Part shown: positions 3,905 to 9,993 of the stretch, in pieces | How positions within the stretch are numbered: the stretch's first letter is position 1 | How the letters are laid out: every line of letters starts with the position of its first letter | Origin: Methanoregula sp. | GTDB lineage: Archaea > Halobacteriota > Methanomicrobia > Methanomicrobiales > Methanospirillaceae | Assembly (NCBI GenBank): GCA_030694985.1 | Contig: JAUYTV010000050.1 | Coordinates: 1 to 64,000 of the forward strand | DNA length: 64,000 nt | Direction: 5' to 3' | Notes under the pieces: generated by a model | Told to the model about the DNA's origin: nothing | What the model saw: the letters and a program-made list of their open reading frames with translations, nothing else | Database searches by the model: none | Made by a program: the position numbers and the translations under genes

Positions 3905-5506
3905 TTAATATGCCCTCTTTCCCGCAGCCGGTTCAATACCGGTTGGCTGATTTCTGATGGTGCGCTCTTTCATGATGGAATAGACTTCATTGGCGTTTTC
4001 TTTTGGAATCTCTACAAAGGAGTAGGAGTCAAGAATCCTTATTGCGCCGATCGCTTTTCCGGGAATGCCGGTCTCACCGGCAATTGCACCAACAATATCT
4101 TTTGGAGCAACCTTGTGCTGCCTGCCGACAGCCAAAAAGAACCTGACCATGCCCACTTCCGCACCAGTGTCAGCAAAGTCGACCTCTTCGCGTTTCTCTG
4201 CCGGAGCTTCAAGGCGCTCTTCCATCTGCATCTTTAAAAGAGCAGCGGCGATTTCAACGGTGTTGAGATCTCCTTCTGTCTCCTTTTCAATGAGACGGGT
4301 AAAGGTTTCGAGACCTCCTGCCTGAATCGTCTCGCGCACGGCTTCAAGCACGGCCTTAGTTCTTGTCTCTGCCACATCGCTCTGCGAGGGAACGGGCATG
4401 CGGGGAATCTGGACCTTGGCATAGTGCTGGATCTCGCGGAGCTTGTTGAAATCTTTGGGCGAGACAAAGGTGATCGCCTTACCGCTTTTACCTGCGCGTC
4501 CGGTCCTGCCGATACGGTGGACATAATACTCCACATCCTGCGGGATGTCAAAGTTGATCACCATGTCAACATCTTCGACATCGATGCCGCGCGCAGCCAC
4601 ATCGGTTGCAATCAGGATCTCAATCGAGCCTTTCCTGAACCCTCCCATCACGCGGTCGCGCTGGGACTGTTTCATGTCGCCATGCAGTTCTTCGGCACGG
4701 TAACCACGGGCTTTGATCTTGCCTGCGAGTTCTTCTGCCCTGCGCTTGGTGTTGCAGAAGATGATTGAGAGGTGTGGGTCGGCAATATCGATCAGCCGGC
4801 AGAGGATATCGATCTTTTCGCGATCTTTAACTTCGATGTAGCTCTGTTCGATCTTTGGAACCGTCAGTTCAGCGTACTGGACTTTGACAAACTCGGGTTT
4901 GTTCATGAACCGCTTTGAGATATCAATGATAGGCTGGGGGAGGGTTGCAGAGAAGAGCAGGGTCTGGCGCTCTTGTGGAACTTTCTTTAAGATGAGTTCA
5001 ATGTCGTCCCTGAATCCCATGTCGAGCATCTGGTCGGCTTCATCGAGCACAACGGTCCGGACATCATGGAGTCCAAGTGTCCTGCGATCAAGATGGTCCA
5101 TCACGCGCCCGGGAGTACCGATCACTATGTGGACACCGGAATGGAGTGCCCGCAGCTGCCGGTCGATTGGCTGACCGCCATAGACCGGAAGAACGTAGAT
5201 CTTTGGGAGATGCGAGAGCAGATGTGAGAACTCTTCTGCGATCTGGATGCAAAGTTCACGGGTGGGACAGAGCACGATTGCCTGAACAACACGTTTTGTG
5301 GGATCGATCTTCTCTATGATGGGAATACCAAAAGCGGCAGTCTTGCCGGTTCCGGTTTGTGCCTGGGCGGTTACGTCACGCCCTGCCTGTATGAGAGGAA
5401 TGGCGAGTGCCTGGATAGGCGAGGGCTCTTCAAAGCCCATATCTTCAATGGCTTTTCCGATCTCCTTTGAAAGGTTGAAATCGGAGAACTGTATACGATT
5501 GTTCAT
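3905..5506 (-). CDS. deaD: DEAD-box ATP-dependent RNA helicase (CsdA/DeaD type)
   Basis: All core helicase motifs are visible in order: Q motif near GFEEPSPIQ, Walker A AQTGTGKT, motif Ia PTRELCIQ, DEAD within VLDEADQM, SAT within LFSATLP, motif V ATDVAARGID and motif VI HRIGRTGRAG. The C-terminal 80 residues, beginning near VGMVRFFLAVG, match the DbpA/CsdA RNA-binding domain that targets structured RNA such as rRNA. At 533 residues it is the length of archaeal DeaD proteins. It would unwind RNA during ribosome assembly or at low temperature. It is a single-gene unit with a poly-T stretch directly downstream. Confidence 0.93.
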   Translation of the reverse strand: MNNRIQFSDFNLSKEIGKAIEDMGFEEPSPIQALAIPLIQAGRDVTAQAQTGTGKTAAFGIPIIEKIDPTKRVVQAIVLCPTRELCIQIAEEFSHLLSHLPKIYVLPVYGGQPIDRQLRALHSGVHIVIGTPGRVMDHLDRRTLGLHDVRTVVLDEADQMLDMGFRDDIELILKKVPQERQTLLFSATLPQPIIDISKRFMNKPEFVKVQYAELTVPKIEQSYIEVKDREKIDILCRLIDIADPHLSIIFCNTKRRAEELAGKIKARGYRAEELHGDMKQSQRDRVMGGFRKGSIEILIATDVAARGIDVEDVDMVINFDIPQDVEYYVHRIGRTGRAGKSGKAITFVSPKDFNKLREIQHYAKVQIPRMPVPSQSDVAETRTKAVLEAVRETIQAGGLETFTRLIEKETEGDLNTVEIAAALLKMQMEERLEAPAEKREEVDFADTGAEVGMVRFFLAVGRQHKVAPKDIVGAIAGETGIPGKAIGAIRILDSYSFVEIPKENANEVYSIMKERTIRNQPTGIEPAAGKRAY

Positions 5507-6223: not shown

Positions 6224-6967
6224 TTACACCGGAATTGTCAGGTCATCAGTAGCAACAATCAGACCCGGCCATTCTTTTTCGTACCGCTGCTTAAGGGAAA
6301 GCCGTTCGTCCACTTTCTTGTAAACTTCCGCTCCGAAATGCATGAGAGCAAGCCGCTTTGCGTGCGCCTGCCGGGCGATATAGATCGCGTCCTCCGGGTT
6401 GAGGTGTGGCCAGTCGGGGCTCTTTACCCCGGGTTTGAGCCCGCATTCGGTGATGAGGAGATCGGCATCCCTCCCGAGAGCTATTGCATTGTCGCAGACA
6501 CCGGTGTCGGTGCAGTAGGTGATCACCTTCCCGTCAATCTCCAGCCGGTACCCAAAACAGGGAGCGGGGTGGACGAGCGGGCGGCACTCCACAGTAAATG
6601 GTAGCGAATGCCTGCCTTCTGCCAGTTCAATGATATCCGCTTTATAGGGAAGACCGGAAAACGGCACCGTGTATGGCTCACGGACAAATGCATTGAGATC
6701 AGTTAAACTCCCGAGTTGGGTGTATACGTGCAGGCCTTTTTTTAACCGGAACTTGACGAGCGTGTGCAGCCCGGCGATGTGGTCGATATGGAGGTGACTG
6801 ATGAACAGGTACACCGGTTTTTTCTGGGTGATATACCGGTCCGCTTTTGCTATGCCATTTCCCGCGTCAAAGATGATATCATATTCCTCTGACTGGACAA
6901 GCACTGAGACCGTATTGCCGGCTGCTGTATCAAACCAGCCATTGGTGCCGAGAAATGTGACCTGCAT
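6224..6967 (-). CDS. MBL-fold metallo-hydrolase (RNase Z-like)
   Basis: The metal-binding motif HxHxDH is plain in SHLHIDHIAG, and further ligands follow in a CTDTG segment and a C-terminal MHFGAE. This is the beta-lactamase fold arrangement shared by RNase Z and related phosphodiesterases. The length, 247 residues, is short for a true tRNase Z. No flexible-arm exosite is apparent, so a general MBL hydrolase is the safer call. The start at ATG 6967 begins the first strand (QVTFLGTNG). The frame extends eight codons further upstream. Confidence 0.8.
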   Translation of the reverse strand: MQVTFLGTNGWFDTAAGNTVSVLVQSEEYDIIFDAGNGIAKADRYITQKKPVYLFISHLHIDHIAGLHTLVKFRLKKGLHVYTQLGSLTDLNAFVREPYTVPFSGLPYKADIIELAEGRHSLPFTVECRPLVHPAPCFGYRLEIDGKVITYCTDTGVCDNAIALGRDADLLITECGLKPGVKSPDWPHLNPEDAIYIARQAHAKRLALMHFGAEVYKKVDERLSLKQRYEKEWPGLIVATDDLTIPV

Positions 6968-7067
6968 ACCGGTGTATTGGTTGTCCAACAAAAAAATGGT
7001 TCAGGTGCAGATGATCCGTTTTTTATTTCTGAACATTGATGGTCGATATACGAAACGTGGAGAATTG

Positions 7068-7961
7068 ATGATCATGAAGCAAACCTATCTTGTTGTCATT
7101 GTTGCAGTCCTGTTCCTGTGCTGCATGTGTGTACCGGTGAGTGCAGTTATCCAGCAGGTTACTCTCAAAGGCGCGGTTGCAACCCTAAGTCCGCCCACGA
7201 ATACAATCACCATTGAACACCCCCAGCAGTACGGGTGTAACTATCCTGCGAGCGGTACACGGGTCTGCACGTATACCCCGATGAGTGTCGGGACTCTCAC
7301 TGGCACGGCACCGGATGTGGCGGCGTTTTCTCTCTTTAAAACCGGTGACCCGGTTGTTGCGACAAGCCTCGGTGGTGCAGGGGAGACCTGGATCACACTC
7401 GCAAAGTTGTTCGGTTCACGGCCAAACGAGGAGTTTGTGACCGATATTGTTGGAGATATCGGTACTATCCAAACCCCGCTCATTGGCAATTATGTTCTGG
7501 ATGCAACCACCATTCCGGACTGCTCGGCCTGCACGGGCACCACCTGTACCGCAATGTCTTCAGATGTCCGAGTGAAGAGCGAGGGAAAGGAAGTCTTTGC
7601 AAAGATACTCAAGCCCGGTGAATCGCTCAACTACAATGGCCGGAACGATGGTTCAAGTGTGGCAGTCACGTTTGTCAAAGGACAGGCATTGTCCGGCACC
7701 TGCCCGGGTAAAGCCGGTATGACCGGCCCCCAGGCAATCTCGGTGTATGTGGTTAAGATTGTGCCACCGATCAGCGCAGCACAAGTGGACATCCGCACGG
7801 CAACCACAACCCGGCCGGATGAGGCGCTGCCCCCACTGCCTCCGACTGCTACTTCCACCTCCCCTACACAAATTCCAACAACGAAATCCGGCATGCTGCC
7901 CCTCGCTGCGATCGGAGCGATCGGACTTGCAGGGCTCATTCTTGTGATGAGAAAGAAATAA
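7068..7961 (+). CDS. Exported membrane-anchored surface protein
   Basis: The protein starts with a signal peptide (hydrophobic residues about 6-22, ending VSA) and has an extracellular domain of roughly 230 residues. A Thr/Pro linker ends in TTKSG, then comes a single transmembrane helix and the basic tail MRKK. The ectodomain contains CNYPASGTRVC and CSACTGTTC, suggesting disulphides. No named domain is recognised. GGAG five bases before ATG 7068 supports this start; ATG 7074 is also possible. The C-terminal layout resembles that of three other exported proteins in this window. Confidence 0.75.
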   Translation: MIMKQTYLVVIVAVLFLCCMCVPVSAVIQQVTLKGAVATLSPPTNTITIEHPQQYGCNYPASGTRVCTYTPMSVGTLTGTAPDVAAFSLFKTGDPVVATSLGGAGETWITLAKLFGSRPNEEFVTDIVGDIGTIQTPLIGNYVLDATTIPDCSACTGTTCTAMSSDVRVKSEGKEVFAKILKPGESLNYNGRNDGSSVAVTFVKGQALSGTCPGKAGMTGPQAISVYVVKIVPPISAAQVDIRTATTTRPDEALPPLPPTATSTSPTQIPTTKSGMLPLAAIGAIGLAGLILVMRKK

Positions 7962-8262: not shown

Positions 8263-9111
8263 TTATTTGTTCTTTCTGGCAATGCCCCAGATAACGCAGA
8301 GCATACCGATCCCAAGAACGGGTAAGAACGGGGCAACCGGAGCCTTTGTAGGTGAGGCGGGGACATTGACGATAACAACCACCGGGGCAGGGGTTGGGGC
8401 GGTCGAGAATACGGCCGGGGTGTTCAAAGAGGAAATCGTTACATCGGTAACAGGGATCGCGGACTCTGCCTGTGCATGGCATTGGCTGTTATAATAATAC
8501 GGATAGCCTTCGGGACAGCACTGGCCTTCGCTTGTCGGGTATTGTCTAAACCCCTCACGGCATGTATGGCAGGCACCATCGTAATACTGGGGAGTATCCC
8601 ACGGACAACATGTGCCGGAATAACTGTCGTACACGCTGGTCTCACGGCACTGGTTGCACTTGCCATCATAATAATACGGATAACCTTTCGGGCAGCACTG
8701 GCCGCCGCTTGTCGATAACTTTTGATACCCATACTGGCATGCATTACAGACTCCATTATAATAATAGGGAGTGTTCGCCGGACAACAGGTTCCGGAATAA
8801 CTGTCATACACGCTGGTCTCACGGCACTGGTTGCACTTGCCGTTATAATAATACGGATAGCCTTCGGGACAGCACTGGCCGTTGCTTGTCGAGAACGTCT
8901 GATACCCATACCGGCATGCATGACAGGCTCCATCATAATAATACGGATAACTTTCGCGACAGCACTGACCGTCGCTCGTGGAGAAGATATAGTATCCTGC
9001 ACTGCAACTGCTGCTGTCATCCGCAGTTACCGGAGTTATAATCGCAAGGATCACAAGGATAAAACTTGCCGAAAGCAGGAGCCGGTATGTTGTCAAACGT
9101 GATGCACTCAT
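8263..9111 (-). CDS. Cysteine-rich repeat surface protein
   Basis: After a signal peptide (residues about 10-30, ending VTA) the mature protein consists of six units of 28-30 residues. Each has the pattern C-x(13,15)-CC-x(10)-C and nearly all carry a YYY or QYY aromatic run, for example GYPYYYNGKC. Units alternate between two subtypes (CxYGYQ and CRETSVYDSY), so the real repeat is a 59-residue dyad. A Pro/Val linker with PTKAPV precedes a transmembrane helix and the tail ARKNK. All repeat cysteines could form disulphides outside the cell. No family is recognised. A role as an adhesin or wall-associated stalk is inference only. Confidence 0.8.
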   Translation of the reverse strand: MSASRLTTYRLLLSASFILVILAIITPVTADDSSSCSAGYYIFSTSDGQCCRESYPYYYDGACHACRYGYQTFSTSNGQCCPEGYPYYYNGKCNQCRETSVYDSYSGTCCPANTPYYYNGVCNACQYGYQKLSTSGGQCCPKGYPYYYDGKCNQCRETSVYDSYSGTCCPWDTPQYYDGACHTCREGFRQYPTSEGQCCPEGYPYYYNSQCHAQAESAIPVTDVTISSLNTPAVFSTAPTPAPVVVIVNVPASPTKAPVAPFLPVLGIGMLCVIWGIARKNK

Positions 9112-9129
9112 TCACCCACCGCCGTATAG

Positions 9130-9315
9130 TATGCTATCATTCGTTTGGCTAACGATAAACATTTGGATGTTCAGGCGGGAACGTCTGTTCTGTCGGAGCG
9201 GAGCCGGCTCAGTCAGCACCTGAAGAATTTTGAGATTATGGGACTGGTCACAAAGACCAAGAGCGGGAAGAATGTGGTAGTGCGGTTGGCCGGACTTGGG
9301 GTGAGGTTTGTTTAA
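9130..9315 (+). pseudogene. Remnant of a winged-helix transcriptional regulator
   Basis: Between the in-frame TAG at 9127 and the TAA at 9313, the plus strand encodes the C-terminal half of a winged helix. SERSRLSQHLKNFE reads as the recognition helix, MGLVTKTKSGKNVVV as the wing, and VRLAGLGVRFV as the end. This resembles MarR/ArsR-like regulators. No ATG is present; a TTG at 9145 would give only 56 residues and omit the first helices. It is therefore probably a decayed or truncated regulator gene, though a short functional protein cannot be excluded. It lies in the 366-base gap upstream of the cysteine-repeat gene. Confidence 0.45.
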
Positions 9316-9477: not shown

Positions 9478-9993
9478 ATGCAGGATAGATCGCATTCGTC
9501 CAATGTGCCGTTCCGGCACCTTTCCTTAATCGTACGGACACTCGTTCTGGTACTTGTCAGCCTTGCAGTGCTGAGCGGAGGCGCTCTTGCTCACCCTCCA
9601 TCCGATGTAACAATGACCTATGACCAGAATACCGGCGATCTTATTGTCACCATCCCCCACCAGGTTGATGATCCTAAAACGCATTACGTGAAACAGGTGA
9701 CGGTGAAGCAGGGAGATACCGTGCTCATCGATAAGTCCTACACCGGCCAACCTGACCGATCATCATTCACCTACCGGTACAATCTTCCCCAGCTCAAAGC
9801 TAGCAGCGGGGAGATACGGGTTGATGCGCAGTGCAACCTGTTTGGTTCACGGTCCGGCACTCTCCCCCTGGGTCCGAACCCTGCTAATACAGCCAGCGCA
9901 TCACCCGCAGCTCCGGCACCCACCAAATCCCCGGTTGGAGTCTTAATCACACTCGTAGCAATCGGGTTTGTTGCTCGAAAGATCCTGAGATAG
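9478..9993 (+). CDS. Exported single-domain surface protein with C-terminal anchor
   Basis: A long signal peptide (hydrophobic about residues 18-36, ending ALA) precedes HPPSDVTMTYD, the start of a small beta-sandwich-like domain of about 90 residues. The domain runs through IPHQVDDPKTHYVKQV. Secreted proteins starting HPP with a HYVKxV strand recur in methanogens and delta-proteobacteria, sometimes next to redox proteins, but no function is known to me. The C-terminus has an Ala/Pro linker with PTKSPV, a transmembrane helix and a basic end. GGAGGC lies upstream of ATG 9478. Confidence 0.72.
   Translation: MQDRSHSSNVPFRHLSLIVRTLVLVLVSLAVLSGGALAHPPSDVTMTYDQNTGDLIVTIPHQVDDPKTHYVKQVTVKQGDTVLIDKSYTGQPDRSSFTYRYNLPQLKASSGEIRVDAQCNLFGSRSGTLPLGPNPANTASASPAAPAPTKSPVGVLITLVAIGFVARKILR

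Follow-up and report, generated by a model that had tools for sequence, protein, structure and literature searches.

Four-cysteine, tyrosine-rich repeat arrays in Methanoregula and related methanogens: an unnamed family of putative disulphide-stapled surface proteins

Background

Several groups of extracellular proteins are built from small cysteine-rich modules. In animal receptors, the TNFR, furin-like and ephrin-receptor-like (GCC2_GCC3) modules and the cysteine-rich regions of the insulin and EGF receptors are small beta modules stapled by disulphides, arranged in series to give a stiff extracellular rod. Granulins (epithelins) consist of stacked hairpins with vicinal cysteine pairs, and the chitin-binding modules of the hevein and peritrophin (CBM_14) types are also small, cysteine-rich and aromatic. 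The substrates of archaeosortases (PGF-CTERM and similar) end in a Thr/Pro-rich linker, a short motif, a helix and a basic tail. Methanogens, the organisms of interest here, are strict anaerobes. One report indicates that obligate anaerobes tend to keep cysteines out of their exported proteins (PMC12453122).

In this study, we analyzed a stretch of 64,000 nucleotides from a Methanoregula genome (the window, contig JAUYTV010000050.1), in which an earlier note, made from the sequence alone, had described a surface protein composed of cysteine-rich repeats. The repeat unit of this array protein differs from the animal receptor modules in having four cysteines with a vicinal pair, in being rich in tyrosine and in its archaeal origin. 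Vicinal cysteine pairs are common to the array and the granulins, but the array has just one CC pair per 29-30 residues, and its cysteine spacing differs from that of the chitin-binding modules. Its C-terminal organization is like that of the archaeosortase substrates. By analogy, the array protein would work like the receptor-type disulphide rods; membership in them is not claimed. The surface proteins of the host group have been little studied, and the parts of the literature that were accessible on Methanoregula surface or cysteine-rich proteins, methanogen cysteine repeats, archaeal GCC2-like repeats and disulphides in anaerobes or methanogens hold nothing on the array family.

Results and discussion

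Layout of the gene and its product

The coordinates of the array gene and its parts are listed in Table 1. Hydropathy analysis gave an N-terminal signal, a C-terminal helix and a basic tail, the layout of an exported and anchored protein, in the window protein and its four orthologs, and the signal, linker and terminal helix are kept across these five proteins (type A, see below). One further cysteine lies in the C-terminal helix of the array protein. The earlier assignment to the cell surface agrees with these predicted features. Upstream of the array gene, on the + strand, a start-less frame (9130-9315) reading ...SERSRLSQHLKNFEIMGLVTKTKSGKNVVVRLAGLGVRFV resembles the end of a winged-helix regulator and is likely a gene remnant.

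Table 1. Features of the array gene and of exported proteins with a related tail
Feature	Position	Strand	Basis or remark
Whole gene, six-repeat surface protein (type A), 282 aa	8263..9111	-	dN/dS <1 vs four orthologs
GGTGGGTGA, adjoins ATG upstream, probable ribosome-binding site	9112..9120	-	read from sequence; role inferred
Export signal, residues 1-30, hydrophobic core ~residues 6-33	9022..9111	-	hydropathy, best 19-residue mean 2.48 at residue 11
Unit 1, Y type	8917..9006	-	
Unit 2, Y type	8827..8916	-	nearest to unit 4
Unit 3, S type	8740..8826	-	nearest to unit 5
Unit 4, Y type	8650..8739	-	nearest to unit 2
Unit 5, S type with PQYY	8563..8649	-	nearest to penultimate units of G068 and G071
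Unit 6, Y type, last, with no next C1 after it	8479..8562	-	
Linker, residues 212-256, Ser/Thr/Pro 18 of 45 residues	8344..8478	-	
Transmembrane helix (~residues 257-277) after PTKAP, basic tail RKNK, stop codon	8263..8343	-	hydropathy 2.17 at residue 259; same layout in four orthologs
Exported proteins with (P)TK(S/A)	6801-7961 (+), 8263-9111 (-), 9478-9993 (+), L103:3254-4060		

Repeat units and cysteine pattern

The array occupies residues 36-211 (176 residues) and comprises six CC-centred units of 28-30 residues each, with 24 cysteines and 32 tyrosines. The units follow the formula C1-x(12-13)-C2C3-x(11)-C4-x2, after which C1 of the next unit begins. The pattern C-x(12,14)-CC-x(11)-C was matched six times in the real protein, and at least two matches occurred in only 65 of 20,000 composition-preserving shuffles. 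Among the 57 non-overlapping ORFs of at least 120 aa in the window, the array protein ranked first in both cysteine (8.9%, median 1.7%) and tyrosine (11.7%, median 3.1%). The six-unit, four-cysteine, tyrosine-rich protein that had been described on 8263-9111 was therefore recovered, with its reading frame exact.

Two subtypes had been described as alternating in a 59-residue dyad. The 177-base dyad is real and is present in three register copies, 8479-8655 (100%), 8656-8832 (78% identical to the first) and 8833-9009 (62%), but strict alternation is limited to units 2-6 because the order of the units is Y-Y-S-Y-S-Y. The DNA copies had also been called still very similar, which is correct locally, with uninterrupted identity over 35 bases at offset 177 and over 39 bases at offset 354, but does not hold for the dyad as a whole.

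Among 62 units with four cysteines each, every unit is followed by the C1 of another except the terminal one, which lacks it in 11 of 11 arrays; in G064, a Thr/Gly-rich linker breaks the array of a 388-aa protein after unit 2, again with no C1 next. Since the arrays end without the next unit's C1, the units look like closed, self-contained four-cysteine modules, and judged from sequence these closed ends are easier to reconcile with two bonds within each unit than with bonds or metal sites that span units. C4 is followed by His in 40 of the 62 units and elsewhere by Tyr (7 units), Trp (7), Asn (6) or Phe (2).

Distribution and architectures of the family

A profile built from 31 two-unit stretches was used to search the class (threshold E 0.001), and 15 of 232 genomes matched, of which 12 belong to the host's own genus, two to another genus of the family and one to another family of the order; G040 is counted among the 15 on the strength of a single weak, partial unit. 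When the whole protein served as query, 15 of 108 family genomes matched, including G013 and G044, whose matches fall outside the units; in a sample of 392 genomes from the phylum, 8 matched. A scan of 84,980 species genomes, not exhaustive because a single peptide pattern was used, gave nine loci, all titled Methanoregula or Methanomicrobiales. Array units were thus found only in Methanomicrobiales, and the protein is dispensable, since at most 12 of 39 genus genomes carry units.

Type A proteins (signal, 4-6 units, linker, helix and basic tail) are present in G000, which is the window's genome, and in G068, G069, G070 and G071. Type B proteins, found in G042, G045, G049, G056 and G063, are longer and carry a C-terminal RPAEGSSHP-like element; full copies have 7-9 units and one copy truncated by its contig has 8, and hydropathy gave no C-terminal helix in the four examined. 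Type C proteins (G000, G010, G063 and G064) comprise a lipoprotein-like signal, three units and a separate cysteine-rich C-terminal domain. No genome was seen with both type A and type B. Single further forms are the 388-aa protein of G064, a 382-aa frame in G166 and a 561-aa protein in G011. The last of these (L105:3119-4804) is exported and joins two array-like units, in one of which CC is replaced by C-x3-C, with a CxxHDxCYxxC stretch resembling that of phospholipase A2. At the end of a 418-aa exported protein of G040 (L098:424-1680), a single half-unit precedes a domain related to the C-terminal domain of type C. A viral or plasmid origin of the family was considered and rejected: scanning viral_contigs gave 11 pattern stretches, none of them a relative, and tblastn against PLSDB and INPHARED gave no match.

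Comparison with known families and structure prediction

No Pfam or NCBIfam family was above cut-off for the window protein or its relatives, and the window protein had no known-family match in PDB sequences; clear homology to a known domain family, listed in the earlier note as the finding that would speak against it, did not appear in any of these collections. When the whole protein and the 31 dyads were compared with Pfam, no TNFR, furin-like or GCC2_GCC3 profile reached its cut-off (best TNFR_ELAPOR1_6th, E 0.033 in 2 of 31 dyads) and no granulin match was listed at E 1. CBM_14 remained below its curated cut-off, with E 0.0078 in one of 31 dyads and no match in the whole protein at E 1.

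AlphaFold2 predicted an all-beta fold with four short strands per unit for residues 30-216 aligned with 16 relative stretches (mean pLDDT 91.5, pTM 0.59), and the dyad with 37 relative stretches gave pLDDT 82.5 and pTM 0.54, values to be read with the caveat that repetitive inputs can inflate AlphaFold2 confidence. Foldseek found no match in the PDB at E 0.001. The best PDB rows, with E from 0.1 to 1, were chains of LRP2/megalin, IGF1R, 4-1BB, ErbB and TNFR, and most of the weak matches were disulphide modules of the animal receptor type (furin-like, EGF-like, LRP, TNFR). None of the comparisons with receptor modules was significant: the best E values of the two Foldseek searches were 0.10 (LRP2) and 2.3 (ErbB3), VIA-align gave nothing at Z ≥2 and the profile E was 5.2. 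A single BFVD fold match, the Harvfovirus protein A0A3G5A0Y7 (E 6.8e-4), had a TM of 0.13 on the query and was taken as a look-alike.

Selection, duplication and probable allele exchange

Comparison of the window gene with its G068 ortholog gave a dN of 0.19 against a dS of 0.66, which indicates a real and constrained gene, and dN (0.15-0.25) was well below dS (0.63-1.28) in all ten type A pairs. The array protein is a representative of a real, constrained and unnamed repeat family with a confident small-module model.

In DNA, the interior units 2, 3 and 4 of the window array are nearest to copies within the same array, and units 1, 5 and 6 are nearest to ortholog units in other genomes, which marks a lineage-specific duplication with the dyad as its unit, as had been proposed. 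The same within-array closeness was observed for units 5-8 of the type B arrays of G063 and G045, so that dyads were duplicated more than once. Across the anchored and long forms the number of units ranges from 4 to 9.

The 12-kb loci of G069 and G070 were 95.0, 94.8 and 91.0% identical outside the array and 77.2% identical across it. Divergence of the array gene at this locus is unlinked to that of its surroundings: its dS was 0.67, compared with 0.09, 0.11, 0.22, 0.09, 0.28 and 0.26 for six neighbours. Against the more distant G071, the dS of the array gene (0.63 and 0.74) was similar to that of one shared neighbour (0.83 and 0.97). Because the array dS exceeds that of the neighbours in the one comparison and is neighbour-like in the other, G069 or G070 probably received a foreign array allele. 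In G045 and G056 the array genes are 89.6% identical and the available flanks do not align, a weaker case because one contig is only 5 kb. This clean locus pair and this weaker one point to exchange of array alleles between related strains. No neighbouring gene was in common between the window locus and the four other type A loci, so that no operon or partner gene can be assigned by association.

Possible cysteine oxidation in an anaerobic host

So many paired cysteines had been regarded as unusual outside a strict anaerobe. This wording does not fit the host, a Methanoregula-like methanogen and thus itself a strict anaerobe, for which a high content of exported cysteine is odder than had been supposed. 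VKOR had no match in 39 genus genomes, and DsbA matched in 6 of the 39, the window's genome not among them. Five thioredoxin matches were found in the window's genome; the best two, fully read, had no export signal by eye and look cytoplasmic from their sequences. A CcdA/DsbD-like membrane protein is encoded about 2 kb from a thioredoxin gene (L103:1883-2548 and 4369-4773); no other transmembrane thiol route was seen in this genome. DsbD/CcdA-like proteins usually carry reducing power outward. It is possible that the cysteines of the array protein are reduced or metal-bound.

Proposed function and alternative explanations

The best explanation, to which we assign a probability of roughly 0.6, is a surface rod stapled by disulphides that serves for contacts or shielding and has been diversified through dyad duplication and gene exchange. 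Counting against it are the low pTM, the absence of a significant match among solved structures, the failure to find DsbA or VKOR in the window's genome, the usually outward-reducing role of the DsbD/CcdA-like protein and the patchy occurrence within the genus. The exported protein would be held in the membrane by its single C-terminal transmembrane helix, and the outer part would consist of six all-beta modules, each 29-30 residues long, that together make a short, stiff rod. The four cysteines of each module would most likely form two intra-module disulphides, for which the pairing C1-C3 and C2-C4 is a guess from similar receptor modules. A tyrosine-rich YPYYYDG strand would be presented outward, and a flexible, probably glycosylated Ser/Thr/Pro linker would connect rod and membrane. 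Most likely, the rod would act at the S-layer or through it, as a tough element that resists proteases and provides contact or shielding. The length of the rod would shift by duplication of the two-unit dyad and whole alleles would be swapped between strains, as expected for a part exposed to viruses or neighbours; the array protein has the appearance of a cell-surface part that is exposed and changeable.

The modules may instead, or in addition, bind sugars, with tyrosine clusters stacking on S-layer glycans or partner-cell sugars in the manner of hevein and peritrophin. Repeat-based multivalency is typical of lectins, a tyrosine-rich strand is present in each unit, and both the CBM_14 match and wheat germ agglutinin among the weak Foldseek matches (rank 33, E 1.2) are in line with binding of this kind. 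These matches are all below significance, however, most of the weak matches are not lectins, and the tyrosines could serve structural packing in small disulphide-rich modules, so that we regard multivalent sugar binding as rather unlikely in its own right; it is compatible with the best explanation as the binding function of the rod.

Stabilization of a stalk by disulphides or metal had been left as alternatives in the earlier note. Disulphides are the best reading of the all-beta model. Stabilization by metal is not supported, since the post-C4 His, the only recurrent non-Cys candidate ligand, is not conserved. A surface-located repeat protein that stores, captures or detoxifies Zn, Fe or Cu through its cysteines would suit the density of thiols in the array, the C-H-x-C at many unit joints and the strictly anaerobic host with no DsbA or VKOR found in its genome. 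The C-x2-C pair of such a site, however, spans two units and is missing at all array ends, and the L017 relative has C-x3-C for CC in one of two units, which means that the vicinal pair is not strictly needed; metal binding thus appears improbable. Slightly less probable again is a plain anchored spacer or stalk with no partner and tolerant of length change. It would suit the variable number of units and the lack of a head domain in type A, but the tyrosines and the unit as a whole are strongly conserved, which, like the fast allelic replacement at one locus, suggests that the surface itself matters.

More broadly, and only tentatively, the arrays may constitute an unnamed ectodomain family of stapled repeats in anaerobic methanogens, oxidized with no detectable DsbA or VKOR and used as a hypervariable, swapped cassette on different anchors (membrane helix, lipid or separate C-terminal element). 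With 24 conserved exported cysteines in a methanogen in which neither DsbA nor VKOR was found, the array protein offers a clean test object for whether, and in what way, disulphides arise outside anaerobic archaeal cells, and in view of the apparent allele exchange it is a candidate for interacting with viruses or partner cells.

Candidate C-terminal anchoring signals

Anchoring by an archaeosortase was not supported, as none of the NCBIfam families matched the window protein or two type A orthologs at E 1. PF09721 (archaeosortase/Exosortase) is present in G068 and G071 and absent in the type A carriers G069 and G070. In the window's genome, G000:C19:34426-34716 gave a sub-threshold Exosortase_EpsH match with an internal stop, possibly a decayed archaeosortase gene. 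The C-terminal 51 residues of type B were likewise rejected as a general sorting signal, being found only in the five type B genes among the 232 class genomes. Four exported proteins of the window's genome (Table 1) carry (P)TK(S/A) just before a C-terminal helix and basic tail. Among 18 tails of this kind at the loci analyzed, 10 contain T[KR][SATG], of which 7, lying inside or outside orthologs of the array gene, are not independent. The (P)TK(S/A) tail may be an unnamed sorting or anchor signal.
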